From positions 124,001-188,000 of the forward strand of contig NZ_JACIBK010000003.1 of assembly GCF_014195325.1 (NCBI RefSeq): DNA of 64,000 nt, read 5' to 3'. The notes beneath the pieces are model-generated. The model did not search any database and was not told the DNA's origin. It was given only the letters and a program-made list of their open reading frames with translations. The DNA comes from Rhizobium sp. BK650 (GTDB lineage: Bacteria; Pseudomonadota; Alphaproteobacteria; Rhizobiales; Rhizobiaceae). Below are positions 39,412 to 57,357 of the stretch, one piece after another. The position numbers and the translations under genes are program-made. The first letter of the stretch is position 1. Each line of letters starts with the position of its first letter.

Positions 39412-39598
39412 GGTTTCGGCGCGCCCCCAGGCGCATGCACGAAAGGCCGCCTGAGCGGGTGCATCATCATATTGGCGTAAGGGGGCACCACCCGCGTACC
39501 CCTGATTGCTGTCGTCCGTTCTCTCGCAAAAGGTGCAATGATGAAGGTCTTGTAATAACGGCCAAAAAGAGCCGAAGTTGCGTAAGGGGGCGCCGCTG

Positions 39599-42500
39599 AT
39601 GCGGAGAATTCGAGTCACTGATAACGAGTATCTCAGTAGTGTTGGTGGAATTCTGAGTGTCAGTCCTGCTCCTTCTACATGGAGCGCAGTCATTGGAACC
39701 GCCGCTTTCGTCTCCTCTTCGGGCCTCGGCGGTTCCCAGAGCTTTGCCAGCCTGGACAGTGCAGCCCCGCCGTCATCCTTGACCGACGCGGGCACAGCGT
39801 CTGTTTCTCTGCTTTCGGGGGGTGGGCTTTCGGGGGCTGGGCTTTCGGGGACTGGGGCGTCGGTGGGCGGGCAATCGCCCACCGCACCGTCGACGGCGAT
39901 ACCGGCGCCCGATGGCGGCGGTCAGGACACTTCCACGACGGCGTCGATAACCTCGCCGCTGCAGACGACGACCACGACCTTGCAGCGCACCGTGCTTGGC
40001 CCCGATCCGTATCAGGAGGCCGCGACGCTGCCTCCCGCGCCGACGCTGACGAGCACAGGGGGAGAAACCAGTACCGGCACCCAGACCGTGGCCCCGCTCG
40101 GCCCATCCACGACTGCCGGCACGACGCCGCTTACGCTCCAGACCTCGATCGCCTCGATCTCGCTCACGCCTAATCTCAGCGCTTCCGCGCCGCTTGCCAC
40201 GGCGACGCTCGGAACGACGCTGCCTGTGACACCGCCTGTGACACCGCCCGTTCTCAACAAGATCGCGCTCGAGAACCTGAAGACGGGCAATCCGATCAGC
40301 GAGTGGGGCATGGAGGACGATGGCAAAGGCACCATCCAGGGCTTTGCCACCGAGATCAGCACCAATGTCGGCCAGACGGTCGATTTCAAGATCGCCACGG
40401 ATTCCACCCATTACCGTATCGATATCTACCGCATGGGCTATTACGGCGGGGCAGGCGCCCGCAAGGTCGACTCGATCGAGAAGTCGCTGACCACGGCGCA
40501 GGTCCAACCGCATCCGATCGTCGACATGTCGCTCGGCCTCATCGACTGCGGCAACTGGTCGGTTTCGGCAAGCTGGCAGATCCCGGCCGACGCCGTCTCC
40601 GGCGTCTATTTCGCCAAGCTGGTGCGCGAGGACGGCACCGAGGATGCCAGCATCATCCCCTTCGTCGTGCGCGACGACTCCTCGCACAGCAATATCGTCT
40701 TCCAGACCTCGGACACGACGTGGCAGGCCTATAATGCCTGGGGCGGGGCGAGCCTCTATTACGGCGACGTTCCCGTCGATCCCGCCGCCATGATCGGCTA
40801 CCTGCCGCCGAACTGCAGCTGCGGCCTGCAGGCGATCGGCCGCGCCTCGGCGATCAGCTATAACCGGCCGATCATCACGACGACGAGCCCGGTCGGCGGC
40901 TCGCACGATTTCATCTTCGGCGTCGAGCATTCGGCCATCCAGTGGCTGGAGCAGAACGGCTACGACGTTTCCTATATCTCCGGCGTCGATGCGACGCGCA
41001 GCGGCAATCTCTTGCTCAACCATCAGGCCTTCCTGTCGGTCGGGCATGACGAATACTGGTCGGCCGAGCAGCGCAGCAATGTCGAGGCCGCGCGCGATGC
41101 CGGCGTCAACCTCGCCTTCTGGAGCGGCAACGAGGTTTACTGGAAGGTCCGCTGGCAAAGCAGCATCGACGGCAGCGGTCAGGCCTACCGCACCATGGTC
41201 TGCTACAAGGAGACCTACGGCACGAGCACGGACCCGAGCGGTGTCGGCACCGGCACCTGGCGCGATCCGCGTTATGCCGATCCGGGGCAGGAGCCGGAAA
41301 ATTCGCTGACGGGCACGATGTTTCAGGTGGACAGCTACCGCCAGGACACGATCTCCATTCCCTACGACTATTCGAACCTGCGCTTCTGGCGCAATACCGA
41401 TGTGGCTCAGCTGAATGAAGGCGAAACCTACAATCTGACGCAGAACCTTCTCGGCTATGAATGGGATTCCGATGTCGAAAACGGCTTCCGTCCGGCCGGA
41501 CTGATCGACCTGTCGCTGTCGTCGGTCGCCGTCAACACCTATCTGCGCGATTACGGCTCGACGATCGGCGATGCGGTGGCGACCCACAGCCTGACCATGT
41601 ACCGGGCGGCGAGCGGCGCGCTCGTCTTCGGCGCCGGCACCGTCTTCTGGTCCTGGGGGCTGAACGCCCAGCATCAGGGGCCGGCAACGCCAACCGATCG
41701 CAACGTGCAGCAGGCAATGGTCAACATGTTCGCGGACATGGGCATCCAGCCGACGACGCTCGATGCGAGCCTGATCCTCGCCACGCAATCGACCGATACG
41801 CTGAAGCCGACCTCGTCGATATCGACGCCCATCGTCGGCGCCTCCTTCCTCGAAGGCCAGCACGTGACGATCACGGGCACGGCGCAGGATTTCGGCGGCG
41901 GCATCATTGCCGGCGTGGAAGTTTCCACCGATGGCGGCGAACATTGGTTCAAGGCCACCGGCCGCGAGAACTGGAGCTATAACTGGGTCGTCCAGGCAAG
42001 CGGCACCTACACGATCATGTCGCGCGCCGTCGACGACAGCGTCAATCTGGAGACGCCTTCGGCCGGCAAGCAGGTCACCGTCACGCTGCCCGGCACGCAG
42101 GGCCTGTGGACGCTCGCCGAAAAGCCCGCGACCGAGGTGGCGATCGACCGCGATTCCGTCGAGCTCGGCCTGCGCTTCCAGGCGACGAGCGCAGGCTCGG
42201 TGGAGGGCATCCGCTTCTACAAGGGCTTCTACAATATCGGCCAACATGTCGTCAGCCTCTGGGCGAGCGACGGGACGCTGCTGGCGACCGGCGTGGCCAC
42301 CGATGAATCGCTTTCCGGCTGGCAGACGGTGATGTTCTCCAGCCCGATCCAGATCCAGGCCGGCACGACCTATGTGGCCTCCTATCACAGCAACGGCTAC
42401 TACTCGCTCAGCAAGAACTACTTCAACGAGCCCTATGCCAGCGGCCAGCTGAAGGCCGTCGATGGCGGCGGCGTCTTCGCCTATGGCACCACGCCCGCCA

Positions 42501-44893
42501 CATTTCCCGGCCAGAACCCCGGCGGCACCAATTACTGGGTGGACGTGGTCTTCGACGCCGGGCCCAACACGGCGCCGATCGCAGGGAACGACAGCGGCTT
42601 TACGATTGCCCACGACGGAACGCTCGTGCTCTCCTTTGCCACGCTTCTGGCAAACGATACCGATGCGAACGGCGATGCGCTGACCATTACCGGCGTCGGC
42701 AATGCGCTGCATGGCACCGTCACGCTCGACAAGCAGTCGGGAACCGTGATCTTCAAGCCCAGTGCCAGCTATACCGGCCCGGCAAGCTTCACCTATACGC
42801 TGTCGGACGGCCGCGGCGGCACGGCGCAGGGCAATGTCGGCCTCACGGTCCAACAGGGCGCTGCCGGCGAGACGGTGTTTACATCGAGCGAAGGGCCGGC
42901 GGGCGCCGGCTTCAATGACAATACGCCGATGGAACTCGGCATGAAATTCGTCGCTTCGGCCAACGGCACGATTTCAGCCATCCGCTTCTACAAGGCTGCC
43001 GGCGATACCGGTGTCCATACCGGCTCGCTCTGGAGGGCCGATGGCACGCTGGTCGCCACCGTCAGCTTCACCAACGAGTCGCTTTCCGGCTGGCAGACGG
43101 CGACCTTCTCAAGCCCGCTGCAGATCACGGGCGGCGCAACCTATATCGCCTCCTACCACACGACCGGCAGCTATGTGGCGACGGCAAACTACTTTACGTC
43201 AGCCCATACGAACGGCTCGCTGACAGCACCATCAGGCGCAAATGGCGTCTATGCAGTGGGCGGCACGGCCTTCCCGACATCGAGCTACCAGTCGACCAAT
43301 TACTGGGTCGATGTCGTCTATAACCAGTCGACATCGAATACGGCCCCGGTCGCGGCCAACGACAACGGCTTTACGACCTATGCCAACACGGCGCTGTCGA
43401 TTGCCGCGGCTAGCCTGCTGGCGAACGATACCGATGCCGACGGCGATCCGCTCTCGATCACCGGAGTCAACGGAGCGGTCAACGGGACGGTAACGTTCAA
43501 CAGCCAGACCAATACCGTCACCTTCACGCCGGCGACGGGTTATACGGGTGCGGCGAGCTTCTCCTATGCGGTCTCCGACGGGCATGGCGGCACGGCGGCG
43601 GCCACCGTCAACCTCAATGTCGGGCCGCAGCCCGGTTCCGGCCTGTTTGCGGATTCCGACACACCGGCGGGTGCTGCCGCCGACAATTCGTCCGTCGAGC
43701 TCGGCGTCAAGTTCGTGGCGTCCGCCCGCGGCGAGATCACCGGCCTGCGCTATTACAAGAGCGCGCAGGATACCGGCACGCATGTCGGCTCGCTCTGGAG
43801 CAGCAGCGGTCAGCTGCTGGCGCAGGCGACCTTCACCGCCGAAACGGGAAGCGGCTGGCAGACGGTTACTTTTGCCCAGCCGATCACCGTTTCGGCCGGT
43901 GCGACCTATGTGGCAAGCTATCATTCCAACGGCTTCTATTCGGCAACGGCGAACTATTTCACATCAGACCATACGGGCAACGGGCTGACGGCGCCGTCGA
44001 GTGCTTCGAGCGGCGGCAACGGCGTCTATGCCTACGGCTCTGGCAGCCTGTTCCCGACCGCTTCCTACAATGCGACCAATTACTGGGTCGACGTGCTCTA
44101 TCAGGCAAAGCAGAACGTCGCTCCGGTCGCGGCCAATGACGGCGGGTTCTCGACGAACAAGGGTGTGCCGATCACCATCCAGGCCTCGGTGCTCCTTGCC
44201 AACGACACGGATGCCGATGGCGATCCCATCGCAATCACCGGGGTCAGCGGCGCGGTCAACGGCTCGGTCTCCTTCGACAGCCAGGCGAAGACCGTCACCT
44301 TCACGCCTGACGCCGGCTATTCCGGCCCGGCAAGCTTCAGCTATTCCATTGCCGACGGACAGGGCGGCACGGCATCGGCGCAGGTTTCGCTAGATATCAA
44401 CGACCCGGCAGCCGAGCAGCACCTGTTTGCCGCCGATGCGACGCCCGCCGTCGTCGCGACCAACGACAACCAGCCGGTCAATCTCGGCATGAAATTCCAG
44501 GCCGATACGTCGGGCTGGATCACCGGCATCCGCTTCTACAAGGGTGCCGACAATACAGGCCCGCATAACGGTTATCTCTGGACCGCTTCGGGCACGCTCA
44601 TCGGCAGCGTCGCGTTCAGCAATGAAACGGTGAGCGGCTGGCAGACGGCGCAGCTGACCCAGCAGGTGGCGATCGAGGCGAATACGACCTACGTCGTCTC
44701 CTACTCGACCAATGGCAATTATTCGGCGACCGGCAATTACTTTGCCAGCGACGTGACGAACGGCGATCTCAAGGCGCCATCAGGCAATAACGGCGTCTAT
44801 GCCTATGGGGCTGGCGGGCTGTTCCCGACCGCCAGCTACAACAACAGCAACTACTATGTGGACGTGGCATTCAAACCGCAGCTCGCGGCCTAA
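39599..44893 (+). CDS. Giant surface/secreted protein: DMFase-like domain plus DUF4082 and cadherin-like modules
   Basis: Protein of 1764 residues. Residues 1-220 are Ser/Thr/Pro-rich. Residues about 224-830 resemble the large subunit of N,N-dimethylformamidase: MGYYGGAGARKV, a substrate-side GHDEYWS motif (about 481-487), GVNLAFWSGNEVYWKVRW and a terminal Ig-like domain. From about 835, four DUF4082-like modules (each ending NYWVDV or NYYVDV) alternate with three cadherin-like modules containing LANDTDADGD calcium-type loops. No Sec signal and no RTX nonapeptides are seen. The type I exporter genes 1.8-5.4 kb downstream suggest export by that route. ATG 39599 follows AAGGGGG; a TTG upstream is less likely. 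Two hairpins follow the stop. Confidence 0.82.
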   Translation: MRRIRVTDNEYLSSVGGILSVSPAPSTWSAVIGTAAFVSSSGLGGSQSFASLDSAAPPSSLTDAGTASVSLLSGGGLSGAGLSGTGASVGGQSPTAPSTAIPAPDGGGQDTSTTASITSPLQTTTTTLQRTVLGPDPYQEAATLPPAPTLTSTGGETSTGTQTVAPLGPSTTAGTTPLTLQTSIASISLTPNLSASAPLATATLGTTLPVTPPVTPPVLNKIALENLKTGNPISEWGMEDDGKGTIQGFATEISTNVGQTVDFKIATDSTHYRIDIYRMGYYGGAGARKVDSIEKSLTTAQVQPHPIVDMSLGLIDCGNWSVSASWQIPADAVSGVYFAKLVREDGTEDASIIPFVVRDDSSHSNIVFQTSDTTWQAYNAWGGASLYYGDVPVDPAAMIGYLPPNCSCGLQAIGRASAISYNRPIITTTSPVGGSHDFIFGVEHSAIQWLEQNGYDVSYISGVDATRSGNLLLNHQAFLSVGHDEYWSAEQRSNVEAARDAGVNLAFWSGNEVYWKVRWQSSIDGSGQAYRTMVCYKETYGTSTDPSGVGTGTWRDPRYADPGQEPENSLTGTMFQVDSYRQDTISIPYDYSNLRFWRNTDVAQLNEGETYNLTQNLLGYEWDSDVENGFRPAGLIDLSLSSVAVNTYLRDYGSTIGDAVATHSLTMYRAASGALVFGAGTVFWSWGLNAQHQGPATPTDRNVQQAMVNMFADMGIQPTTLDASLILATQSTDTLKPTSSISTPIVGASFLEGQHVTITGTAQDFGGGIIAGVEVSTDGGEHWFKATGRENWSYNWVVQASGTYTIMSRAVDDSVNLETPSAGKQVTVTLPGTQGLWTLAEKPATEVAIDRDSVELGLRFQATSAGSVEGIRFYKGFYNIGQHVVSLWASDGTLLATGVATDESLSGWQTVMFSSPIQIQAGTTYVASYHSNGYYSLSKNYFNEPYASGQLKAVDGGGVFAYGTTPATFPGQNPGGTNYWVDVVFDAGPNTAPIAGNDSGFTIAHDGTLVLSFATLLANDTDANGDALTITGVGNALHGTVTLDKQSGTVIFKPSASYTGPASFTYTLSDGRGGTAQGNVGLTVQQGAAGETVFTSSEGPAGAGFNDNTPMELGMKFVASANGTISAIRFYKAAGDTGVHTGSLWRADGTLVATVSFTNESLSGWQTATFSSPLQITGGATYIASYHTTGSYVATANYFTSAHTNGSLTAPSGANGVYAVGGTAFPTSSYQSTNYWVDVVYNQSTSNTAPVAANDNGFTTYANTALSIAAASLLANDTDADGDPLSITGVNGAVNGTVTFNSQTNTVTFTPATGYTGAASFSYAVSDGHGGTAAATVNLNVGPQPGSGLFADSDTPAGAAADNSSVELGVKFVASARGEITGLRYYKSAQDTGTHVGSLWSSSGQLLAQATFTAETGSGWQTVTFAQPITVSAGATYVASYHSNGFYSATANYFTSDHTGNGLTAPSSASSGGNGVYAYGSGSLFPTASYNATNYWVDVLYQAKQNVAPVAANDGGFSTNKGVPITIQASVLLANDTDADGDPIAITGVSGAVNGSVSFDSQAKTVTFTPDAGYSGPASFSYSIADGQGGTASAQVSLDINDPAAEQHLFAADATPAVVATNDNQPVNLGMKFQADTSGWITGIRFYKGADNTGPHNGYLWTASGTLIGSVAFSNETVSGWQTAQLTQQVAIEANTTYVVSYSTNGNYSATGNYFASDVTNGDLKAPSGNNGVYAYGAGGLFPTASYNNSNYYVDVAFKPQLAA
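42105..44890 (+). repeat. Coding repeats of about 770 bp
   Basis: DUF4082-like modules start near 42105, 42868, 43640 and 44420, each followed (except the last) by a cadherin-like module near 42572, 43343 and 44119. Shared words at DNA level include TCGGGCTGGCAGACG-type and AAYTACTGGGTCGA. Module number may vary between strains. Confidence 0.8.
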
Positions 44894-44895
44894 AG

Positions 44896-44981
44896 CAATT
44901 CCAGCAAAAGCGTGCAGGGGGGTGCTGGAATTGACTGAAAGCTGGAGCGCCGTGCGCCCGAACGGGGAGACGGCGCTCCAG
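44896..44981 (+). terminator. Two consecutive hairpins after the giant gene
   Basis: CAATTCCAGCA/TGCTGGAATTG (44896-44933, 11-bp stem, 16-base loop) and CTGGAGCGCCGT/ACGGCGCTCCAG (44942-44981, 12-bp perfect stem). The first starts three bases after the stop codon. The second shares its GCTGGAGCGCCGTGCG word with the mosaic element at 14098. No T tract; they may stop RNA decay rather than transcription. Confidence 0.65.
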
Positions 44982-45029
44982 AGGCCGCGAGGATGTAAGG
45001 CCAAGCGATTGTAACGAGTGAGAGTATCG

Positions 45030-46262
45030 ATGGCGCGTGCAGACAACAGATTGCCGGTTACCGTCCTCGCCGGGTTCCTCGGCGCCGGCAAGACGACTGT
45101 CCTCAATCATGTCCTGAGTAATCGGGAGGGTCGTCGGGTTGCTGTCATCGTCAACGATATGAGCGAGGTCAACATCGATGCGGATCTCGTGCGCGAAGGG
45201 GGTGCAGACCTTTCGCGCACGGACGAGACGCTGGTAGAGCTCACCAACGGATGCATCTGTTGCACGCTGCGCGACGATCTCCTGAGCGAGGTGCGCCGGC
45301 TTTCGGCCGCCGGCCGTTTCGACTACCTGCTGATCGAGGGCACCGGCATTGCCGAGCCGCTGCCGGTCGCAGCCACTTTCTCCTTCCGCGACGAGAGCGG
45401 GGCTGCCCTTTGCGACGTGGCAAGGCTCGACACGATGGTCTGCGTCGTTGACGCAGTCAATCTTCTCGCCGATTACCGGAGCGCGGATTTCCTTGCCGAG
45501 CGCGGCGAAAGGCGGGACGGGGACGACGAGCGCAAGCTCGTGGAACTCCTCGTCGAGCAGATCGAATTTGCCGATGTCGTCATCGTCAACAAGGCAGGCG
45601 ACGTGCCGCCCGCGATGCTTTCGGAAGTTCGCCGGGTCGTCATGGCGCTCAATCCGGATGCCCATGTCATCGAGGCGGTCTTCGGCCAGGTACCGCTGTC
45701 TGACATCATGGATACCGGCCTCTTTTCCGAGGCGAAGGCCGCGCGCCATCCCTTCTGGCACAAGGAGCTTTACGGCTGGGGCGCGCATCGCCCGGAGACC
45801 GAGGAATACGGCATATCGAGCTTCGTCTACCGCAGCCGCCGGCCCTTCGATCCGGCACGGCTGAGCGCCGTCATCGACCAGCCTTTGCCTGGCATCATCC
45901 GGGCGAAAGGGCATTTCTGGCTGGCGACCCGGCCGGACGAGATCGGCCTGTTGTCGATTGCCGGCACGCAATGCCGCATCGGCACCCGCGGCTACTGGTG
46001 GGCTTCGGTGCCGCGGGCGCAATGGCCGCGATTTCCGCAATTCCGCGAGCTCATCGACAGGCATTGGGACGATATCTGGGGCGACCGCCGCCAGGAGCTG
46101 GTCTTCATCGGCTCCGGCTTCGACGAAGAGGCGATCCGCGCAGCGCTCGACGATTGCCTTGTCGGGGAAGAGACGGGTTTCGATCCGCAGACCGCCATCG
46201 GCCTTCGCGACCCGTTTCCGGCATGGCGGCACGATATGCACGCATCGGACCGAAAAGTGTGA
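45030..46262 (+). CDS. CobW/COG0523 family GTPase, ZigA-like metallochaperone
   Basis: Protein of 410 residues. G1 motif GFLGAGKTT (15-23), metal-binding C-x-C-C motif CICC (75-78), Switch/G3 region [10 protein letters not shown]4 NKAGD, and a C-terminal CobW domain. The C-terminal region with [21 protein letters not shown] is typical of ZigA-type proteins linked to zinc scarcity. The last residues HASDRKV and the stop codon are encoded by a palindromic element, so the natural C-terminus has been altered. No clear Zur box was found upstream. Its position inside a secretion locus is unexplained. ATG 45030 follows GAGTGAGAG. Confidence 0.88.
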
Positions 46263-46286
46263 AGCGGTTTTCGGATAATCCGATGC
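46242..46286 (-). repeat. 45-bp palindromic element, reverse copy
   Basis: Reverse complement of the element at 1286-1330 with only a few differences. It covers the last seven codons and stop of the GTPase gene and ends 51 bases before the next start. Confidence 0.88.
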
Positions 46287-46337
46287 GTCGGACTCAAAGG
46301 TGAATACGGTTTTGCTTATCAACCAGAGGAGAGAGTT

Positions 46338-46643
46338 ATGAGCAGCGAACTTTATGCAGACGGCATCGGCGAGATCACCATCACGGGAACGATCGTGCGG
46401 ATCGACCTGATGTCGCTCTCGGCGACCGACCGTGACGCCAACAACAATCCGAAGCCGGTCTTCCGCCAGCGGATCATCATGCCGGTCGATGCCTTCGCCA
46501 ATGCTGTCGATCTCATGCAGAAGGCGCTCGGCGGGCTGGTCGAGGCAGGAGCGATCCGCCGCATCGGCGACATGTCGGCTGCCGCGGCTGCCGATATTCA
46601 GGCAACGGCCGGCGGGTCGAACGCTTCGCCGAACTTCAACTGA
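46338..46643 (+). CDS. Small conserved protein upstream of the type I exporter
   Basis: Protein of 101 residues: SELYADGIGEITITGTIVRIDLMSLS (beta-rich), a central FRQRIIMPVDAFANAVDLMQKALGGLVEAGAI, and an Ala/Ser tail. No signal or membrane segment. GAGGAGAGAGTT precedes the ATG. It lies 37 bp before the ABC exporter gene and is likely co-transcribed, so it may be an accessory factor of secretion; the name of the family is not known to me. Confidence 0.7.
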   Translation: MSSELYADGIGEITITGTIVRIDLMSLSATDRDANNNPKPVFRQRIIMPVDAFANAVDLMQKALGGLVEAGAIRRIGDMSAAAAADIQATAGGSNASPNFN

Positions 46644-46680
46644 TAGCAACAGCCTCGGTCTCTTTTGTTTCGGGTGGGCC

Positions 46681-48825
46681 ATGAGTGGTTTTCTGCATAC
46701 GAACCTGCACTGTCTTGCGCTCGTCGCGCGCCATCACGGCGTCGATCTTTCTCCTGAGCGCCTGCAGCACGATTATGCCGTCGGCAACGATCCGGTTGCC
46801 GTGCGGCAGATGCTGCGCATGGCCAAGGACGCCGGCCTCAGGGCCAAGCATCTGACGCTCGACTGGCGGGGCCTGTTTCAGCTCCGCGAGGCCTTCCCGG
46901 TGCTGGCCGAGCTTTCGAACGGCAACTGGGTGGTGATCGCGGGCGCCATCGGCGAGGGCGAGGAGGAGCGGATCCGCGTTCTCGACCCGCTGGCGGCCCG
47001 CCCGGAAGTGATGATGCTGAACGAGGAGCAGTTCGCCAAGGCCTGGCTCGGCTCGGTGGTTCTCTTGAAGCGCAACTATCGCATGGCAGACGAGGACCGG
47101 CCCTTCGGCTTCCGCTGGTTCGTTCCTGAATTCATCAAACAGCGCAGTTTCTTCCGCGACGTGGCGCTCGCAGCCTTCGTGCTCTATGGCCTCGGGCTGA
47201 CAACACCGATGTTCTTCCAGCTCGTCATCGACAAGGTGCTGGTGCATCAGAGCTACGCGACGCTGACGGTGCTGACTGTTGGTATCGCCGTGGCGCTGAT
47301 CTTCGACGCGACCTTCAGCTTCCTGCGCCGCTACCTGCTGCTCTATGCCACCAACAGGATCGACATCCGCGTCGCGACCCGCACCTTCGGCCATCTGCTC
47401 AACCTGCCGATTTCGCTTTTCGAGCAGGCCTCTGCCGGCGTTCTCGTCAAGCATATGCAGCAGACCGGGCGTATCCGCGAGTTTCTGACCGGCCGGCTGT
47501 TCCTGACGCTGCTCGACGGCGTATCGCTCTTCGTCTTCGTGCCGATCCTGCTTCTCTACAGCGTCAAGCTGACGCTCGTCGTGCTCGGCTTTGCAGCCCT
47601 TGTCGGGCTCGTCGTCATGCTGCTCGTCGGGCCGTTCCAGCGGCGGCTCAAGGCGCTCTACCAGGCCGAAGGCGACCGGCAGGCTTTGCTTGTCGAAACC
47701 GTGCACGGCATGCGCACCGTCAAATCGCTGGCGCTGGAGCCGCGCCAGCGCAAGGTGTGGGACGATTATTCGGCCCAGTCGATCTCGGTGCGTTTCCGGG
47801 TCGAGAAGATCTCCACCATCGCCCAGTCGCTGACCGGGCTTCTCGAAAAGCTGATGAGTGTCGCGATCATCGGGCTCGGCGCGCTGGATGTCTTCTCCGG
47901 CTCGATGACGATCGGCGCGCTGGTCGCCTTCAACATGCTCGCCGGCCGCGTATCGGGACCGCTGGTGCAGATCGTCACCATGGTCCACGAATATCAGGAA
48001 GTGGCGCTTTCCGTGCGCATGCTCGGCGAGATCATGAACCAGCGGCCGGAACAGGCCGGACGTGGGCGAGGGGTCAGGCCACATCTGCATGGCCGTATCG
48101 AATTCGACCGCGTCAGCTTCCGCTATGCGCCGGATGCCGCACCCGCACTCGACAACGTCTCCTTCGCCATTCCGGCCGGCTCCGTCTTCGGCATCGTCGG
48201 CAAGAGCGGCTCGGGCAAGACGACGATTACCCGGCTGATCCAGGGGCTCTACCAGAGCCAGGAAGGCCTGGTGCGGATGGACGGCTATGACAGCCGCGAG
48301 ATCGACCTCGTGCATCTCAGAACCAGCATCGGCGTCGTGCTGCAGGACAATTTCCTGTTCCGTGGCACGGTGCGCGACAATATCGCAGCCGCCAAGCCCG
48401 ATGCCAGCATCGAGGAGATCATGGAGGCCGCCCGCATCGCCGGCGCGGAAGAATTCATCGAGCGCCTGCCGCGCGGCTTCGACACGATGCTTGAAGAAAA
48501 CGCCGCCAATCTCTCCGGCGGCCAGAAGCAGCGGCTCGCCATCGCGCGCGCGCTGATCACCGATCCGAAGCTTCTGATCTTCGACGAGGCAACCAGCGCG
48601 CTCGACCCCGACAGCGAGGCGATCATCCGCGAGAACCTGAGCCGCATCGCCGCCGGGCGCACCGTCGTCATCGTCTCGCACCGGCTTTCGACACTCGTCG
48701 ATGCCGATGCCATTCTCGTCGTCGAACGCGGCAAGGTCGCCGATATCGGCCGGCACGACCAGCTCGTGTCGCGCTGCATGACCTACCGCCATCTCTGGGC
48801 ACAACAGATGAGGCAGGTCGCATGA
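46681..48825 (+). CDS. Type I secretion ABC transporter with C39-like domain (HlyB/RtxB type)
   Basis: Inner-membrane exporter of 714 residues. Residues 1-130 form a C39 peptidase-like domain without a properly placed catalytic Cys (a CLD, as in HlyB). Residues about 150-440 are the six-helix membrane domain. The ATPase has Walker A GKSGSGKTT (about 507-515), signature LSGGQKQR (about 611), Walker B LLIFDEATSALD (about 631) and H-loop SHRLST (about 666). HlyB-type exporters move proteins in one step with HlyD and TolC. It is coupled to the HlyD gene by ATGA. The giant protein upstream is the likely substrate. No tolC gene is in the window. Confidence 0.93.
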   Translation: MSGFLHTNLHCLALVARHHGVDLSPERLQHDYAVGNDPVAVRQMLRMAKDAGLRAKHLTLDWRGLFQLREAFPVLAELSNGNWVVIAGAIGEGEEERIRVLDPLAARPEVMMLNEEQFAKAWLGSVVLLKRNYRMADEDRPFGFRWFVPEFIKQRSFFRDVALAAFVLYGLGLTTPMFFQLVIDKVLVHQSYATLTVLTVGIAVALIFDATFSFLRRYLLLYATNRIDIRVATRTFGHLLNLPISLFEQASAGVLVKHMQQTGRIREFLTGRLFLTLLDGVSLFVFVPILLLYSVKLTLVVLGFAALVGLVVMLLVGPFQRRLKALYQAEGDRQALLVETVHGMRTVKSLALEPRQRKVWDDYSAQSISVRFRVEKISTIAQSLTGLLEKLMSVAIIGLGALDVFSGSMTIGALVAFNMLAGRVSGPLVQIVTMVHEYQEVALSVRMLGEIMNQRPEQAGRGRGVRPHLHGRIEFDRVSFRYAPDAAPALDNVSFAIPAGSVFGIVGKSGSGKTTITRLIQGLYQSQEGLVRMDGYDSREIDLVHLRTSIGVVLQDNFLFRGTVRDNIAAAKPDASIEEIMEAARIAGAEEFIERLPRGFDTMLEENAANLSGGQKQRLAIARALITDPKLLIFDEATSALDPDSEAIIRENLSRIAAGRTVVIVSHRLSTLVDADAILVVERGKVADIGRHDQLVSRCMTYRHLWAQQMRQVA

Positions 48826-50285
48826 ACGCGCATGTCAGAAAATCCGGCGAGAACCTGCCCGTTGCAGCAGACAACGAACCTTCGGACAAGGCCTCTTCGG
48901 AGAAGGCGCCGCAGGCAAGGAGCGGGCAGCTTGTCGCGCGCCCGCCGCTGCCGCCTGTCATCGCCGAATTCCAGTCCGACGCCGTCGAGCTGGAAGAGCG
49001 CGCTCCGCCGCGCATTGCGCGCATGACGCTCTATTGCGTGACGGCGCTGCTTGCCGCCACCATCATCTGGGCCACCGTCTCCGAGATCGACGAGGTGGTG
49101 ATCGCGCCCGGCAAGCTCGTGACCACGCAGCCGACCATCGTCGTCCAGCCGCTCGAAACCTCGATCATCCGCACGATCGACGTGAAGGCCGGCGAGGTGG
49201 TGCATGCCGGCCAGACGCTGGCAACACTCGACGCCACCTTCAGCCAGGCCGATGTCGACCAGCAGCACGCGAAATTTTCCGCACTCGACGCCCAGGTGAA
49301 GCGCATCGAGGCGGAGCTTGCCGGCAACGACTACACTGTCATGGCCGGCAACACGCCTGACGAGATGCTGCAGGTGCAGCTCTTTGGCCAGCGGCACGCC
49401 TTCTACACGGCGCAGCTGCAGAATTTCGACCAGCAGATCGCCGGCCAGTCGGCAGCCCTTGCCGCGGCCAAGAACCAGGAGGCCGTGCTGACCGAAAGGC
49501 GCGATACGCTCGGCCGGGTCGAGGATGCGCGCACGCGGCTCTACGACAAGCAGAGCGGCTCGCTGATCACCATGCTCGGCTCGCGCGACGCCCGCCTCGA
49601 GGTCGAATCCGACCTGACCGCCGTGCGCGGCAAGAGTGACGAGGCCGCACATGCCTATTCAAAGCTGCGCGCAGACCGCCAGGCCTTCATCGAGGATTTC
49701 CGCCGCGCCGCGATGGAACAGCTGGTGGAGTTGCGCGGCCAGCGCGACGTGGCCGATGAAGAGCTGAAGAAGATGGAGCTGCGCCGCAACATGGTGTCGC
49801 TGACGGCACCCGCCGATGCCGTCGTGCTCGATCTAGCCCAGCGCTCCATCGGCTCCGTCGTGCGCGAGGCCGAACCGATCGTCACGCTGGTGCCGATCAA
49901 TGTGCCGCTCGAAGCGGAAGTGTCGATCAACACCCGCGACATCGGCCGCATCGCCGTCGGCAAGGAGGCGCGCATCAAGCTCGACGCCTATCCCTTCCAG
50001 AAATACGGCACCGCATCTGGCGAGGTACGCACCATCAGCCAGGACACGTTCATGACCGGCCAGCAGCCGGAGCAAACCGCCACGCCCAGCCAGCCGGCCG
50101 CACCCTTCTTCAAGGCTCGCATCCTGCTTGCGGATACAAGGCTGAACGCCTCGGACGTGCCGGTTCGGCTGCTGCCGGGCATGACTGTGTCGACCGAAAT
50201 CAAGGTCGGAAAACGCACGGTGATCTCGTATTTCCTCTATCCGCTGCTGCGCGGGCTGGATGACGCCATCCGCGAACCGAACTGA
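48822..50285 (+). CDS. HlyD family type I secretion adaptor
   Basis: Periplasmic adaptor of 487 residues. The N-terminal cytoplasmic part (1-65) is Pro/Ser-rich, one membrane helix spans about 67-88 (MTLYCVTALLAATIIWATV), followed by a lipoyl half-motif (IAPGKLVTTQPTIVVQPLETSIIRTIDVKAGEVVHAGQTLATLD), long coiled-coil hairpin (about 145-320), the second lipoyl half and a beta-barrel with VPINVPLEAEVSINTRDIG, ending PGMTVSTEIKVGKRTVISYFLYPLLRGLDDAIREP. It bridges the ABC exporter and an outer-membrane TolC. Start overlaps the exporter stop. Confidence 0.93.
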   Translation: MNAHVRKSGENLPVAADNEPSDKASSEKAPQARSGQLVARPPLPPVIAEFQSDAVELEERAPPRIARMTLYCVTALLAATIIWATVSEIDEVVIAPGKLVTTQPTIVVQPLETSIIRTIDVKAGEVVHAGQTLATLDATFSQADVDQQHAKFSALDAQVKRIEAELAGNDYTVMAGNTPDEMLQVQLFGQRHAFYTAQLQNFDQQIAGQSAALAAAKNQEAVLTERRDTLGRVEDARTRLYDKQSGSLITMLGSRDARLEVESDLTAVRGKSDEAAHAYSKLRADRQAFIEDFRRAAMEQLVELRGQRDVADEELKKMELRRNMVSLTAPADAVVLDLAQRSIGSVVREAEPIVTLVPINVPLEAEVSINTRDIGRIAVGKEARIKLDAYPFQKYGTASGEVRTISQDTFMTGQQPEQTATPSQPAAPFFKARILLADTRLNASDVPVRLLPGMTVSTEIKVGKRTVISYFLYPLLRGLDDAIREPN

Positions 50286-50806
50286 GGGGTCCGCAGGCGA
50301 GGTGCAGGGAGGGGCTTCTGCACTTGCCAGGGGATGGGGGCGGCGCCGAGGGTTCGCGGGCGCTGCCCCCAGACCTGTTTTGGGGGGGCGCGGGATTCAG
50401 AGCCGCGAGGTTGGAGGGAGGGTCGCGCGTCACTCGTCTCCGTCGTTGCACTGGGGATCTTTCGCGGCGACGTTTGCAGCGGGCTCGCCGGCCGCTTCTG
50501 CGGAAAAGCCTACTTTTCGAAGGATAATATTGCTTTGCGCCTTCATAGAAGGCGTTGCGATATCTAATGTGAGAGCTCGGAAGTGGGCATCCGACCCGTC
50601 CCACAGAATATCATTAGGTGTTGGCCTTGACATAGGATTGAGAGAGAACAAAATGAGAACTCGCCATTGCAGCCAACGTTCCATGGAAAGACATCGAGCA
50701 GATGAGATGGTGGTTAACCAGAATTCAATACCCAGATTGTAGTTGGTTCTACGATGAGCTAGTCTGTTTACTGAATGACCTTCTGAACACGAGTCTGTAG
50801 CAAGCA
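50286..50806. other. Intergenic interval at the edge of an AT-richer island
   Basis: No supported gene in 520 bases. A GC-rich hairpin at 50336-50370 (GGGGGCGGCGCC/GGGCGCTGCCCCC) and an overlapping CCCCCA/TGGGGG pair to 50386 may end the secretion operon. From about 50500 the composition becomes noticeably AT-richer and remains so through the methyltransferase genes. The stretch 50700-50806 presumably holds their promoter; no clear boxes. Confidence 0.5.
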
Positions 50807-53587
50807 ATGGCCACGTCCCACGACCAAATCGGCGCAATGGCGCAACAGCACGGTTTGGCCCGAGCGCGCTTGTTCCGTGGAGATGATAGATCCCGCGAGG
50901 GCGAACACGAGGTATTGCTCGACGGAGCGTTTGGCAGCTTCGCGGTGTCAATAGCCGACGATATCGATCCTGTAGACGCCTCGTCTTGGGTATGGTCATC
51001 AAACGTTCCGCACCACGTTTTGATGACGGGCGACCGAGTTAGAGTGACGAGGTGGGATCGTCCAGACGAGAAGAGTGAGTTCGATGCCAGCCGCGTGCTG
51101 GACAATCCTGCTGATTTTTATGAGCATCTACGTTCCGATAGAACAATCGACCCTCGCACGATTGTTGAACATTCGATGTCCCTATTTAAAAGGGTGCGCA
51201 ACCTTGTTCACCATGCGGATCTGCCAGATGAGAAATCGATAGCAGCCTATCTAACATTCCTCGGTTTATTTGCCAGCGGCCAACAAGTCACCAAAAGAAA
51301 CCTTGCGAGCGTCAATAACGCCCTTCAATTGCCAGATGGTGCGATGGATATTGTCTCCTTGCTTCCACAGGGGGAGGTAGAGACTATTTACGATGAATTC
51401 CAAACACTTAGATTGGGCAACAGATCACTTGCCGCGGACGTGTCCCTCGCCATTCGGCACGCATCGGGCGCTATCTTCCAAGAAGCGCATCATGTTCTTG
51501 TTCAGGGTCCTCCACCCGACCTCTTCAACTATGTGGCACCGGCGACTGCGCGCAAACCGGATCGCGGAGGAGTGCATTTCACTCCCCCGTTCCTGGCTCG
51601 GGCTTTGTCCGAGCAAGTGTTGCAGGCTCTGGGTGATCTCAAAAATCGTAAGCACATCGTCATTGCGGACATCGCGTGTGGGTCCGCGGCATTCTTGGTG
51701 GAAGCACTTCGCGCGTTGGAGCGAATGGAGTATCGAGGGGACATTACCCTAATCGGTCGAGACACGTCGCCAATTGCAATCGACATGGCGCGTTTCGTGC
51801 TTGGAGTAGCCGGGCAGGAATGGCCGGGGAGCAACCGGATTGCACTGGATCTGGAAGTAGCCGATTCTCTTCAAAATAAACCGAAGCTTCTGGCAGATGC
51901 GGTGGTTATGAATCCGCCCTTCACCAGATGGCAGGAGTTGAGCGCCTCTCAACGAGATTTGCTGTCTGCCATCGTTGGGAAGCATGCAGGAGCTCGGCCA
52001 GATCTCAGCATGGCGTTCGTCGAGCGCGCGCTCGACATCGTGAAGCCCGACGGTGCGGTTGCGACCTTGTTGCCCGCCACCGCTCTTGATGCGAAGTCCG
52101 CCTCGGCATGGCGAAGCAGGCTCTTAGATCAAAAGCAGATTTTTTTGTCAGCCCTGTTCGACGATCAGAGTATCTTTTCGCATGCTCGGGTTCGAGTTGG
52201 TGCCTTAGTCCTAAGCGGTAAAGATGTTCAAGATAGCATTCGCATTCATGCAGGGTCCGGTCCGGAGAATGCGGGGGACTCTTTACGGGCGTTGAGGCTG
52301 AAACGCTGGAATTCCAACGCGAACGTAGGATTTTCGCTCAGTCTTGTGCCCGCGGCGAGAAGTTCCGCACTGAACAAAGCTGCGACGCCAGTGAGCACAG
52401 ACTGGAGTGCGCATCTCGGCCGACTGCGTCCGCTAACAACGAATGCACAGCGATCTGTCGCCACGACAGTGAGGGACATATTCGATGTAAGGCAAGGTAT
52501 CCGAACCGGGGAGAACACGGCGTTTGTTCTAGACCACGGGCAATGGCTGGAGCTACCCGAGCAGGAAAGACCGTTTTTCCGTCCTGCGATCTCCTCAAAG
52601 GGTATCTTGGACGGTCGGGTAACCCAATTGTTCTACGTGTTTTACCCCTATGGAAATGAGCACACTATAAACACTGAGTTTGACCTGCGTGAGCGACTGC
52701 CGCGATTTAGCGTAAAATACCTGGAGCCATTTCGGCAGAAGCTCGCCCAACGGCGAGCGAAGGGAGGGAAGTGGTGGGAGCTCAGCGAACGCCGGTCAGG
52801 TATGGAAAATGCCCCTCCCGCTTTTGTCTCAAAATACTGGGCAAAACCTGGAGGCTTCGTTCGCCACACTCCAGCTCAGGCTGTCGTACTTCAGGGATTT
52901 GGATGGGTCATCCGCCAGAATCCGATTTCGCATCTGCCGCCGTTAGAGCTGAGGCATATCGAGCTCGCATACTTGGCGTTGCTCAACTCCGAGGCATTCT
53001 TCAATCTGATTGCCGAACACGCGCCACCCACCAGTGGCGGACAGTTCGATATGAGTCCTCGCTACATTCTTGATGTTCCGCTGATAGACTTGTTTAACTC
53101 GCGTGATCTCTTCGCTCGTGAAATCGAAATCTTGGCGAAGTACTCGTACGCTTATTACGAACGGCCCTACAAGGGATCGGACGCCGACAAGGGTATTGCA
53201 GAAGCCGCGGCCTCAGCAGTCTTGGGACTAGAGTCTATCCCCCCTGCGATTCGGCTGGCGCAAAATCTAGCCGGCGGCTTGCTTCCTGATTGGCTCGGAC
53301 CATTCGTTGAAACAGGCCATGAAGGAACTGATCGCGCCTACAGGGTGAGCGTATTGGCTAAGTTGCAGGAGCTTGCGCGGTCTGGCGACTATTCTGAAAT
53401 CGATGTAGCTCTCCGCCAAGCCCCCGTTTCGCAGCTTGCGGAGACGTCCCTGATGACGCTGTTGCGCGGAAGCTACCGTTTCAAAACCAGGTTGAAAGAT
53501 TGGGATGGATTCCGTGACCGCGTCGCCTCCGAGCTTAACAAGCGAGGCGCTCCTGTGAATCGGTTGCTGATCGGATTGTACGAATGA
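50807..53587 (+). CDS. N6-adenine DNA methyltransferase, large (type IIG/PglX-like architecture)
   Basis: Protein of 926 residues. N-terminal region (1-240) of unknown fold, then the gamma-class adenine methylase core: motif X region VHFTPPFLARAL (about 256), SAM motif I ADIACGSAAFLVEAL (about 286-300), catalytic motif IV N369-P-P-F in DAVVMNPPFTRWQEL. A long C-terminal half (about 530-926) includes a probable target-recognition region with IFDVRQGIRTGENTAFVL, YLALLNSEAFFNLIAEHAPPTSGGQFDMSPRYILDVPL. No PD-(D/E)xK nuclease motif is obvious, so it may modify without cutting. Lower GC than its neighbours suggests recent transfer. Coupled to the next gene by ATGA. Confidence 0.85.
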   Translation: MATSHDQIGAMAQQHGLARARLFRGDDRSREGEHEVLLDGAFGSFAVSIADDIDPVDASSWVWSSNVPHHVLMTGDRVRVTRWDRPDEKSEFDASRVLDNPADFYEHLRSDRTIDPRTIVEHSMSLFKRVRNLVHHADLPDEKSIAAYLTFLGLFASGQQVTKRNLASVNNALQLPDGAMDIVSLLPQGEVETIYDEFQTLRLGNRSLAADVSLAIRHASGAIFQEAHHVLVQGPPPDLFNYVAPATARKPDRGGVHFTPPFLARALSEQVLQALGDLKNRKHIVIADIACGSAAFLVEALRALERMEYRGDITLIGRDTSPIAIDMARFVLGVAGQEWPGSNRIALDLEVADSLQNKPKLLADAVVMNPPFTRWQELSASQRDLLSAIVGKHAGARPDLSMAFVERALDIVKPDGAVATLLPATALDAKSASAWRSRLLDQKQIFLSALFDDQSIFSHARVRVGALVLSGKDVQDSIRIHAGSGPENAGDSLRALRLKRWNSNANVGFSLSLVPAARSSALNKAATPVSTDWSAHLGRLRPLTTNAQRSVATTVRDIFDVRQGIRTGENTAFVLDHGQWLELPEQERPFFRPAISSKGILDGRVTQLFYVFYPYGNEHTINTEFDLRERLPRFSVKYLEPFRQKLAQRRAKGGKWWELSERRSGMENAPPAFVSKYWAKPGGFVRHTPAQAVVLQGFGWVIRQNPISHLPPLELRHIELAYLALLNSEAFFNLIAEHAPPTSGGQFDMSPRYILDVPLIDLFNSRDLFAREIEILAKYSYAYYERPYKGSDADKGIAEAAASAVLGLESIPPAIRLAQNLAGGLLPDWLGPFVETGHEGTDRAYRVSVLAKLQELARSGDYSEIDVALRQAPVSQLAETSLMTLLRGSYRFKTRLKDWDGFRDRVASELNKRGAPVNRLLIGLYE

Positions 53588-54300
53588 CGTTTCAGCATTG
53601 CGACAGCGTTGTTGCTAATCCGAATTATGTGGGTATTGCCATCAGATCTACGCCGCTTGGCGAGAGAAGTATGCATGTTGGACTTCTCTACAGGCATTCC
53701 AATGGTAACGTAAAGTTCGCTCATCTGGCCTGGCACAATGACTTGCATGATGAACCTCTTCCGTCTGGTGAGAATTACCTGTGGGCAGAATGTGAAGCAC
53801 TTGCGCAAGACGACTCTTTGAGCGACTTCGTTGCCAGTTTCATTGAACTCTGTGCACAGTCCAAGGAAATTCCTTACGGACCAAATCCCCCCGCAAGTGC
53901 CTTCGATTCAGATGGACGCTATACTCCCCAAAGTGATCGAGAAGGCTTAACTTGCGCCACCTATATATCGTCGGTGCTTTCTGGAGCAGGATTTCCTGTC
54001 GTGCAGCTTGAGACGTGGGAGAGAAGGCCAGACGATGCAGTTTGGTGGTCGTCAATGATGGGATATCTTAACAAATGGGCTCCTGAGCGCGCAGCGGAAT
54101 TAGCTGATGTTGCGATCGAGTTTCGATTAAGGCCAGACGAAGTTGCGGTGGCGGCGACCAGCATAGATCCACCGCTTGCGTATCGTGATGCCGCAGCCCG
54201 TTCAGTGCCACTACAGGAGCTTCTATTTCCAGCGAGCACTAACGGCACCGATCCAGCTGCCGGTGTCGCATTGTCGTCCGATGCGATCGCCCAACAATGA
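53584..54300 (+). CDS. Methyltransferase-coupled protein, possible permuted papain-fold
   Basis: Protein of 238 residues translationally coupled to the methyltransferase. H31 in SMHVGLLYR precedes C124 in GLTCATYISSVLSGAG, with aromatic and Gly residues around both. A His-before-Cys order with HVGLLYR and TCATYI is what one sees in circularly permuted NlpC/P60 (papain-like) proteins. The rest is helical. No signal peptide, so it is cytoplasmic. A protease, amidase or acyltransferase role is conjecture. AT-richer than flanking host genes. I do not recognise a named family. Confidence 0.6.
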   Translation: MTFQHCDSVVANPNYVGIAIRSTPLGERSMHVGLLYRHSNGNVKFAHLAWHNDLHDEPLPSGENYLWAECEALAQDDSLSDFVASFIELCAQSKEIPYGPNPPASAFDSDGRYTPQSDREGLTCATYISSVLSGAGFPVVQLETWERRPDDAVWWSSMMGYLNKWAPERAAELADVAIEFRLRPDEVAVAATSIDPPLAYRDAAARSVPLQELLFPASTNGTDPAAGVALSSDAIAQQ

Positions 54301-54551: not shown

Positions 54552-55466
54552 CTAAAGCATGAGCAAGTTCGAGCAGCCCCGCCATGATGTCGGACGCCTT
54601 TGAGGCGGAGCCACGGGACTGTGCTCGGGTCGCCTGCGGGAAGCGGCGGGCCGAAGCTGCGGGTCATCGTCATCGGGGCTGTGATATAGCTGATGTCCGT
54701 CACGATTATTGTGAGGGCCAGCACGAGAAGAGGATGACGGGAGCGATGGGACACCACCATCAATCCGGCTAATCACCCCGCATAAGGGAAAAAAAACCTT
54801 GCCGCGACCTGGATCGACTATCGTGATGCTGCCGCCCGTTCCGTATGAGTAGAATGATCCGGTTGACTGGATCGCTTTGTCCGCTTCGCCGTCGCGCCCG
54901 TCTTTAATCGAGATATCGAAGCCGTATTTTCCCAGGTATTCAGAGATCGTCGGCGGATGGCGCTCTGGAAGCTCGACGGACATCATATCTGGATCGTCGT
55001 CGTAAGGATGCCATCTGCCCAAGGCTGCTTCGTCGCTACGGTCGTCGACCGGTGTTGCGTGCCAGACTCCCTGTCCTCCTGAAAGCATGTCCTTCAGCTT
55101 GCTTCCCTGTTGCCGTGCCCAGTCTGCACTCGTATCGGTCAGCCGATAGACAACGAACCCGGTCTCGTTGTCGCCGGGCATGAAACCGACGCCCCAGGAT
55201 TCCTCCAGGCGATACTCGATCTCCGCTACTTCAAGTGGTTCGGGAACGCGTGCGAGAACAAAGTTTCGCTCCCAGATTTTCATCCCAACGAAGGGCAATA
55301 CGATCGCCGCCAGACCAACAGCGACAATCAGTCTTCTTCGGACGAACTGGTCGGGTCGCGTCCGTCGCCAGAGGCGGCGTAGCCAAAGAAAGAAAATTGC
55401 AGTTGCGGCGACGGAAAGCAGAATAAAAATGGAGAACACGCACAGCATGAAAACGACGTAGTTCAT
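54552..55466 (-). CDS. Membrane-anchored hypothetical protein with apparent C-terminal frameshift
   Basis: N-terminal part has two membrane segments (about 5-30 and 45-62), then a soluble domain with ESWGVGFMPGDNETGFVVYRLTD and a conserved-looking YLGKYGFDISIKDGR. After GRGKVFF the reading frame becomes Pro/Ser/Arg-rich and unlike protein. This occurs at a run of eight A (plus strand, 54789-54796). With seven A the frame would read VFFPYAG-stop and end at 54773, giving about 230 residues. So the final 70 residues are probably spurious. Function unknown. Confidence 0.6.
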   Translation of the reverse strand: MNYVVFMLCVFSIFILLSVAATAIFFLWLRRLWRRTRPDQFVRRRLIVAVGLAAIVLPFVGMKIWERNFVLARVPEPLEVAEIEYRLEESWGVGFMPGDNETGFVVYRLTDTSADWARQQGSKLKDMLSGGQGVWHATPVDDRSDEAALGRWHPYDDDPDMMSVELPERHPPTISEYLGKYGFDISIKDGRDGEADKAIQSTGSFYSYGTGGSITIVDPGRGKVFFPLCGVISRIDGGVPSLPSSSSRAGPHNNRDGHQLYHSPDDDDPQLRPAASRRRPEHSPVAPPQRRPTSWRGCSNLLML

Positions 55467-55650: not shown

Positions 55651-57357
55651 TCACATCTCCGGCAGCCCAGCCTTCCTAAAACCGTCGACAAAATGGTCCC
55701 GTACGGATGCATCGCGCAGCGGCTGGGAGCTAAGCCAATGGGCGATGGTGAAATGAGGGTGGGCGATCAGGAAGAGTTCGGCTTCCCGCCGCGCCTCCTC
55801 CTGGTGGCCCAGCTGCGCAAGCGTGGCAGCCAGGAATTTGCGTGAGTTGGTGCGATAGGTGTCTTCCCTGCGGAGTGTCGCGGCTGCCGCCTCATAGTCA
55901 CGCGCGGCATATTGTGCCTGTCCGAGGTGACAAAGATACCAGCAGGCTGGGCGGGGATTGAGCCGCAGGGCTTTTTCGATCTGCGCCAGTCCGTCGGCAA
56001 CCCTGCCGTCCAGCACGGAAATGTCCGACATGGCGGCCCAGGTGTCGGCGTGGTTGGGGTCCAGCTCCAGGGCCTTGGCGAAGGCGGCCTCGGATTCCTC
56101 CCATCGCCGCTCATAGGCCAAGATGGTCCCCAGAACGTAACGGCAGCCGGCATCGTTGGGGTCGAGGTCGACGGCCTTTTGCGCTGACGTTACCGCCATC
56201 TTCCGGTTCGGGTCTTCGGGCTCGCCGAAATGGGTCCAGGCCAGCCAGCGGTTATAGGCGAGCAGACCGAGCGCCTCGGCATAGGATGGCTCGAGCTTGA
56301 GCGCGCGCTGGAGCAGCATATGAGCCTCGCGCTCGGTTTGCGGAGACTCTTCCGTCAGCAGGCGGGCGCGCACACAGAGGTCGTAGGCCTCGAAGTTCTT
56401 CGGCCGATTGCGCGGCGGCGGGATGGTCAGCCGGCCGACGAGGGCTTCGACGATCTTGGCGTTGACCTCATCCTGCAGTTCGAAAACATCTTCCACTGTC
56501 CTGTCAAATCTTTCGGCCCACAAGTGTCCGCCGCCCAGCGTGTCGACCAGCTGGGCATTGATGCGGACGCGGCCCATTGCGCGCCTGGCGCTCCCTTCGA
56601 GGACGTAGCGGACGCCGAGTTCCTGGGCGACCAGCTTCACGTTGACCGGCTTGCCCCTGTAGCCGTAGACGGAATTGCGCGCGATGACGAACAGGCCGGC
56701 CGTGCGCGAAAGGTCGGTGATCAGGTCTTCGGTCAAGCCGTCGACGAAAGGCGCGTCCGCTTCATCCCCGCTCATATTCGTGAACGGCAATACGGCGATC
56801 GAGGGATTTTCCGGCAGCGGCAATATGCTCTGCAGCTCATCCGGCCAATGCCAGATGTGGACCGGGCGAGTGAGGTTCTTCAGGTAGCGTTCGCCGGCAT
56901 CGAAGAAGTCGTCGTCGATCTTGCCGAGGATCTCGCCGTGAACGCCGGCTGAAATGCAGATGCCTCCCGGCGCGGCCTGTCTCTCGAGGCGCGCTGCCAC
57001 ATTGACCCCGTCGCCGAGGACGTCTGAACCCTCGTCAATGACATCTCCGAGATTGACGCCTATACGCAAGAGCAGGCGCCGGTCTCCGGAAGCCTCGACA
57101 GCAGCGGTGGTGCGTTGGATTTCCAACGCTGCTGCGACCGCTTCCACCGCGCTGGCGAATTCGATCAGGAAGCCGTCGCCCATGACCTTGAAGATGCGGC
57201 CTTTGTGGCGCTCCACAGCCGGCTCGATCGTGCCGGAACGGAGTTCCCTGAGGTTGTCAAGCGTTGCGGCTTCATCTGTCTCCATCAGGCGTGAATATCC
57301 CACCACATCGGCAACGACGATGGCGGCAAGGCGGCGCTGAAGAGATTGATCCGTCAT
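55651..57357 (-). CDS. Class III adenylate/guanylate cyclase with TolB-like and TPR regions
   Basis: Protein of 568 residues. The catalytic domain (about 8-170) has RRLAAIVVADVVGYSRLM (metal Asp), KGRIFKVMGDGFLIEFAS (second metal Asp) and DGVNVAARLE. A linker with IAVLPFTNMSGDEADAPFVDGLTEDLITDLSR begins the TolB-like/CadC-associated region (about 185-300), and TPR-like helices fill about 340-530. It is soluble, cytoplasmic, and makes cAMP or cGMP in response to an unknown signal bound by the TPR/TolB part. Large paralogue sets of this type are usual in rhizobia. Monocistronic. Confidence 0.92.
   Translation of the reverse strand: MTDQSLQRRLAAIVVADVVGYSRLMETDEAATLDNLRELRSGTIEPAVERHKGRIFKVMGDGFLIEFASAVEAVAAALEIQRTTAAVEASGDRRLLLRIGVNLGDVIDEGSDVLGDGVNVAARLERQAAPGGICISAGVHGEILGKIDDDFFDAGERYLKNLTRPVHIWHWPDELQSILPLPENPSIAVLPFTNMSGDEADAPFVDGLTEDLITDLSRTAGLFVIARNSVYGYRGKPVNVKLVAQELGVRYVLEGSARRAMGRVRINAQLVDTLGGGHLWAERFDRTVEDVFELQDEVNAKIVEALVGRLTIPPPRNRPKNFEAYDLCVRARLLTEESPQTEREAHMLLQRALKLEPSYAEALGLLAYNRWLAWTHFGEPEDPNRKMAVTSAQKAVDLDPNDAGCRYVLGTILAYERRWEESEAAFAKALELDPNHADTWAAMSDISVLDGRVADGLAQIEKALRLNPRPACWYLCHLGQAQYAARDYEAAAATLRREDTYRTNSRKFLAATLAQLGHQEEARREAELFLIAHPHFTIAHWLSSQPLRDASVRDHFVDGFRKAGLPEM

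Follow-up and report, generated by a model that had tools for sequence, protein, structure and literature searches.

Background

Two described arrangements are among the closest to the locus considered here. According to the portion of the published account drawn on (PMC2610378), PrrC is silenced by a type I restriction–modification (R-M) enzyme and becomes activated by a phage anti-restriction factor. Effector-associated domains (EADs) of conflict systems, in the part of the survey used (Kaur et al. 2020, PMC7159879), are small domains fused to varied proteins and accompanied by adjacent effectors, one of which is papain-like. The present locus lies in a window of 64,000 nucleotides (nt) from Rhizobium sp. 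BK650 (NZ_JACIBK010000003.1, 124,001–188,000, forward strand), whose own numbering is used for all coordinates below. It comprises a methylase gene (50807–53587, + strand, ATG start, 926 amino acids [aa]) and gene C (53584..54300, + strand, 238 aa), which encodes a predicted permuted papain-like protein and whose ATG start codon overlaps the methylase stop. Both reading frames are intact, and their sizes and 4-bp overlap agree with the initial annotation of this DNA. On sequence comparison, the conserved unit is not the methylase together with the papain-like protein but protein C together with domain B, a small domain that ends the methylase; the locus as a whole is interpreted as the methylase-fused form of a mobile sensor–adaptor–effector module, with a probability of about 0.5.

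Pairing of domain B with protein C

Domain B, the putative adaptor, is a separate C-terminal helical domain of about 95 aa, delimited by a hidden Markov model match (methylase residues 828–925; 53288..53581, + strand). A B model built without the window still matches methylase residues 829–924 (58.3 bits, E 4.2e-20), and gives no match to two related methylases from other loci (L004 and L005); the best of 1000 shuffles, run as a control with the model containing all rows, scores 3.6 bits.

A plasmid search with C returned one Rhizobium and one Acinetobacter plasmid, and on both the gene preceding C ends in a stretch resembling the methylase C terminus. Scanning one genome per species across 84,980 species yielded at least 35 loci for C (from 57 pattern matches), and these 35 genome loci, the two plasmids, and the window make up a set of 38 (L013, L014, and L015 duplicate L016, L022, and L042 and are excluded from the counts). 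In 37 of the 38, the gene immediately before C ends in domain B; six of these 37 stand outside the B model—three left out deliberately and three missed by the neighbour rule—and match it with E values of 2.4e-9 to 4.8e-27. One further plasmid (L092) carries another B–C pair. Fifteen IMG/VR viral contigs carry C, with B adjoining it in 12, and two of the three exceptions are cut at the contig edge; L051 and L052 have an identical B, and the third gene and B of L054 are identical to those of L023. Scanning 339 genomes for B gave three matches, all in genomes carrying C; because the three loci were already rows of the model, this shows only that the sample yielded no orphan B. Three C queries found no match in 50,697 phage records, and the idea of C as a gene of sequenced phages was rejected, although the viral contigs above hold relatives. 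One Pseudomonas module found no match in E. coli by blastn, a nucleotide search to which distant copies would be invisible.

The undescribed module anticipated in the initial annotation is thus retained in altered form: the unit has no database family, and the conserved partner of C is the methylase's C-terminal domain rather than the methylase itself.

Fold and active site of protein C

The AlphaFold2 (AF2) model of C, built with a 34-sequence alignment, has a predicted local distance difference test score (pLDDT) of 89.7 and a predicted template modelling score (pTM) of 0.87. VIA-align was run on the 989 chains ranked highest by Foldseek, and its top match is 3kw0, a Bacillus cereus cysteine peptidase, at Z 8.5—a moderate score on VIA-align's own scale—over 141 residues at 3.3 Å. 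The rows that follow are the type VI secretion system (T6SS) effector TseH (Z 6.3) and Aichivirus 2A (Z 5.5 and 5.3), both of which we take to belong to the same fold group as 3kw0, and a Euglena complex subunit (Z 5.1).

In the part of its published description used here (PMC3142127), 3kw0, or BcPPNE, is a permuted YaeF/YiiX-like NlpC/P60 enzyme with an active site of Cys154, His49, Glu64, and Tyr127. Protein C holds a comparable set, all on the + strand: His31 (codon 53674..53676, in the context MHVGLLYR) is present in 34 of 34 aligned family members; His47, the third polar residue (53722..53724), is His in 27 and Asp in seven of the 34; Tyr98 (53875..53877) is kept in 32 of 34; and Cys124 (53953..53955, in the context GLTCATYI), at a helix N terminus, is kept in all 34. 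As far as that description extends, the order His, polar, Tyr, Cys is common to both proteins (31/47/98/124 in C against 49/64/127/154 in BcPPNE), with a His–polar spacing of 16 in C against 15 and a Tyr–Cys spacing of 26 against 27. Unlike the permuted NlpC/P60 enzymes, C has further helices after residue 145 and sits as the second gene behind B.

The constancy of Cys124 is partly selected, because GLTCAT served as the search motif and is held by all 33 genome-scan rows of the alignment; His31, position 47, and Tyr98 lie outside it, and the cysteine is kept in all six C sequences gathered without the motif. The active-site quartet lends independent weight to the papain assignment beyond the structure match. 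Taken together, sequence and model give protein C a fold and quartet that make it very probably a permuted papain-like protein with its catalytic residues present and conserved, and the arrangement first predicted from the letters alone, His31 ahead of Cys124 in a permuted papain fold, is upheld by the motif positions, the AF2 model, the 3kw0 match, and the quartet.

Family searches return nothing for C: its profile has no match among Protein Data Bank sequences at E ≤ 1, the 34 sequences match no Pfam model at E ≤ 0.01, and the window protein reaches no Pfam cut-off and has no PADLOC or NCBIfam match at E ≤ 1. A viral structure library likewise gives nothing at E ≤ 0.001; its top rows include kobuvirus polyproteins and Orf virus OPG091.

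Structure and conserved tail of domain B

The AF2 model of the last 104 methylase residues (pLDDT 92.3) has six helices. The best structural match by VIA-align is a CTLA-4 binder at Z 8.1, many helical folds score alike, and Foldseek finds no match at E ≤ 0.001. REV1 C-terminal domains occur in both B structure lists (VIA-align Z 6.4–6.7), and Pfam REV1_C matches one of 35 B sequences at E 0.00098; this could be chance, since three further Pfam families match one B member each (E 0.0016–0.0097). As a weak lead from the model, B may be a REV1-like protein-docking helical bundle. A copy of B stands alone in Rhizobium leguminosarum (L006:6046–6360), 46.6% identical to the window B over 118 residues.

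Two positions of B, Leu99 and Gly101 in the 104 window residues aligned, show at least 90% constancy, and in most rows this conserved tail reaches the end of the chain or stops no more than about 10 residues short of it. Tail processing is common among papain-like enzymes, and C could accordingly be pictured as a processing enzyme that cuts or modifies the B-bearing protein—for example, trimming the methylase C terminus—and so regulates the methylase or sensor. Such a role, which is distinctly unlikely, leaves unexplained why B accompanies several upstream parts, unrelated to one another, on mobile elements.

The methylase and its relatives

The methylase core, including an N-terminal domain, spans residues 1 to about 800 (50807..53206, + strand). 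Pfam places N6_Mtase at residues 249–470 (50.9 bits, cut-off 20.4) and Eco57I at 364–457 (38 bits, cut-off 25.3); motif I, ACGSAAF, occupies residues 290–296 (51674..51694, + strand) and motif IV, NPPF, residues 369–372 (51911..51922, + strand). By the order of motif I and NPPF and by family match, the enzyme is a gamma-class N6-adenine methyltransferase, as had been proposed.

The initial annotation also saw no nuclease motif in the methylase, and no recognised nuclease domain appears among the Pfam, PADLOC, and NCBIfam matches listed: for residues 1–242 these include no nuclease family, and the best 25 of the 45 PADLOC families matching the methylase all fall in residues 243–749. Residues 1–250 hold no invariant lysine in four aligned sequences (the window and three relatives) and therefore no invariant (D/E)xK. 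An ordinary type IIG enzyme with a hidden nuclease was provisionally rejected on these two grounds, a diverged nuclease being possible. A classical type II R-M pair does not fit, given that the adjoining protein is papain-like and that nearby genes lack a nuclease match: Pfam and PADLOC scans found none in the next gene (54552–55466) or in the preceding HlyD gene.

The four nearest methylase relatives found (L004, L005, L070, and L071) are about 814–827 residues long and lack B, as judged by the B model for L004 and L005 and by the C-terminal end for L070 (L071 is the locus of genome G058). Aligned with the window methylase, three relatives of 814–827 aa (L004, L005, and L008, the last being the G058 copy) run along its length and end where B starts. 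In all four, the next gene encodes a protein of about 245–273 aa, partner X, for which hhalign gives no relation to B, C, or the third-gene groups. The window methylase hence bears the B–C module in the place where its relatives carry X. The expectation that methylase and papain-like protein would be conserved as a pair fails, and that pairing was ruled out as the conserved unit.

Partner X has conserved GHPHWQ.D and R.EW motifs, and the methylase–X loci (L004:5971–9172, L005:5525–9169, L070:3299–7028, and L071:9279–12911) are possibly an undescribed modification system. Three of the four have a small MerR-like gene in front of the methylase, assigned by a weak, sub-cut-off Pfam match for one and by likeness for two. 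A viral scan with the methylase alignment gave only two distant methylases among the matches listed.

That the core of the methylase falls in a group with a different partner, and that its fusion to B is seen once, would suit an ordinary orphan or type II-like methylase with a passenger domain, C being inactive or unrelated to methylation. This is quite improbable, as the catalytic residues of C are kept, both window reading frames are intact, and B is separately attached to another methylating enzyme (L039).

Genes in front of domain B

A further gene overlaps or abuts B in 34 of the 38 loci. In about 20, by alignment and by eye, it is TIGR04255 or like it, and four of 10 upstream proteins scanned pass the NCBIfam TIGR04255 cut-off. 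A second upstream group of 10 (L003, L027, L033, L036, L038, L041, L042, L043, L045, and L050; about 236–264 aa) has no detectable profile relation to TIGR04255. Two alike upstream genes occur in Planctomycetota and Verrucomicrobium metagenome-assembled genomes (MAGs) (L021:5582–6262 and L029:5587–6279), that of L021 reaching no NCBIfam cut-off; L025 has a singleton gene, L024 a ParA-like ATPase, and L049 an upstream part without B, and in L031 the upstream part is not readable.

In two of the 38 loci, the window and L039, B is fused to a methylating enzyme. On L039, a contig from a Polyangiaceae MAG, a type IIG model covers residues 17–1161 of a 1301-aa protein (1407 bits) that carries B at 1200–1300, with C overlapping by 4 bp. 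The window B groups with L023 in the B tree and the window C with L023 and L002 in the C tree (both of TIGR04255 type), and L039 is placed elsewhere in both trees, grouping being read without regard to branch supports. The two fusions therefore look independent, and a mobile B–C module seems, from these sequence comparisons, to have joined DNA-methylating enzymes on two occasions. Coupling of a methylase to a papain-like protein, a central point of the initial annotation, is thus present in the window, but mostly other genes precede B–C.

These upstream parts also bear on whether B and C are simply a toxin–antitoxin or addiction pair, with B (here on the methylase) as antitoxin and C as toxin, maintaining plasmids and prophages rather than killing phage. 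A gene before B in 34 of 38 loci is unusual for a two-part pair and attachment to an entire type IIG enzyme suggests sensing, so that this explanation is unlikely despite the order of B before C with overlapping or nearly touching ends and despite carriage on tiny plasmids and in viral contigs.

Mobility and neighbouring genes

The three genes occur with few others on plasmids of 6.6 and 6.9 kb, and phage integrases directly follow C in five of 10 downstream genes scanned, which were picked for size and strand. The defence neighbour scan covered 97 hand-picked open reading frames (ORFs) of 177 listed from 30 loci, and the best 25 of 87 matching families were considered. Some loci have known defence genes close by: DrmB and DrmC at L025, PDC-M71A and PDC-M71B at L020, and a type III restriction gene at L017. 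Matches to DrmA, Specificity_I, and PtuA also occur among the neighbours, without assignment to a locus. The defence neighbourhood is only suggestive, because there is no background rate with which to compare it. A defence role, as initially proposed, is plausible from this context—prophage-like contigs, integrases, and some defence neighbours—and is one that we infer.

On the Rhizobium CB3060 plasmid (L002:5642–7939 and 18364–19620), genes for multiubiquitin, ThiF, and DUF6527 lie about 0.5–2.8 kb from the module, and a DUF4297 anti-phage-associated gene is about 8 kb away.

Genomic setting of the window locus

The methylase and C genes have G+C contents of 54.9% and 51.9%, against 65.3% and 63.0% for the flanking HlyD and cyclase genes and 60.9% for the window, which confirms the AT-richer island between host-like genes. 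Its left edge is an AT-richer leader (50286..50806, + strand, 56.2% G+C) between the HlyD gene and the methylase gene; the gene preceding the methylase is of HlyD type by Pfam, not TIGR04255. In the relative G1119, both flanking genes are present (87% and 93% identity) and stand about 14 kb apart, against 5.4 kb in the window, with other genes filling the interval. Because these flanks enclose different and longer content, the site is variable. Among 397 genomes of the order, C occurs in the window's own genome only and the methylase in that genome and one other, G058; C is present in four of 398 genomes of the phylum.

To the left of the island (39578–50285, + strand) are a 1771-aa ORF, a C39-peptidase ATP-binding cassette (ABC) exporter, and a HlyD-type protein, resembling a type I secretion cluster. 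The other flank, kept in relatives, is a class III adenylate cyclase with tetratricopeptide repeats (55651–57357), which matches a Pycsar cyclase model weakly and probably only generically.

Proposed mechanism

In the sensor–adaptor–effector interpretation, B would bind C and thereby keep it inactive or in place, and the part before B—a TIGR04255-type protein, a methylase, or a type IIG enzyme—would sense the invader. The window methylase would mark host DNA; on meeting a phage anti-restriction factor or foreign DNA that lacks the modification, it would cause B to free C. The freed protein, a latent cysteine hydrolase, might then cleave a host or phage target such as a peptide, a lipoprotein, or a lipid amide or ester, and infection would be stopped. 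More broadly, and tentatively, B–C may represent a widespread, hitherto undescribed immune module in which a permuted-papain hydrolase rides on a portable helical adaptor and is triggered by exchangeable sensors, R-M enzymes having been recruited at least twice and methylation status controlling a cysteine hydrolase rather than a nuclease.

Several points weigh against the sensor–adaptor–effector interpretation. The exceptional locus L049 has a short C without B upstream, viral contig L065 has C without B, and the R. leguminosarum plasmid has B without an adjoining C. The correlation between the B and C tree distances is uncorrected for the shared ancestry of the loci. The structural score of C is moderate, and Foldseek alone gives it no match at E ≤ 0.001. 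The methylase fusion and the type IIG fusion are each seen once, the latter on a MAG contig whose B matches weakly (leave-one-out E 8.7e-7). The defence share of the neighbours cannot be read from the best 25 of 87 families without a background rate, and binding of B to C, inhibition, toxicity of C, and defence are steps that we infer. On the other side stand the conserved B–C gene pair, the correlation of its tree distances over 36 loci (r 0.70, where 1000 label shuffles reach 0.22 at most; L031 and L049 are excluded from the trees), the fusion of B to a methylating enzyme in two distant lineages, the modelled fold and quartet of C, the three B matches in 339 genomes with no orphan, the signs of mobility, and the defence genes near some loci.

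Comparison with known systems

No description of the B–C pair was found among the matches listed, in titles and abstract openings of the open-licence PubMed Central (PMC) literature, and the name TIGR04255 has no mention found in that literature. PADLOC gives no match for the C and B proteins tried, except in the restriction part of the L039 fusion. To our knowledge, coupling of a methylase to an effector is known only with nucleases such as PrrC.

The B–C pair provides a conserved, testable two-part unit where records read 'hypothetical protein', and two separate lineages link DNA modification to a papain-like hydrolase; were the proposed gating true, methylases would act as the sensing part for an effector that cuts proteins or lipids. 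A genomic context is also gained for part of the TIGR04255 family. C has no database family and B none that is reliable; by kind, the pair would belong to the sensor–adaptor–effector conflict modules.

Set beside the TIGR04255–B–C operons, the window shares B directly upstream of C, with the methylase standing in the place of TIGR04255, a family of unknown function in NCBIfam that supplies the third gene, ahead of B, in many B–C loci but is not beside the window pair. Among type IIG enzymes, L039 carries one ending in B, whereas the window protein has no recognised nuclease domain. The likeness to EADs, within the part of the survey used, is that B is a small domain on varied proteins with an effector gene adjoining; EADs pair homotypically, whereas B is found only in the upstream protein of the loci examined. 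A PrrC-type guard is not what the locus contains, since C is papain-like and no type I R or S subunit was matched among the scanned window neighbours by Pfam or PADLOC. With PrrC–EcoprrI, as far as the account drawn on goes, the locus would share its proposed logic only—an effector silenced by a DNA-modifying enzyme—and it differs in both components: PrrC is an anticodon nuclease whereas C is papain-like, and the silencer proposed here is a single methylase to which a helical domain is fused.

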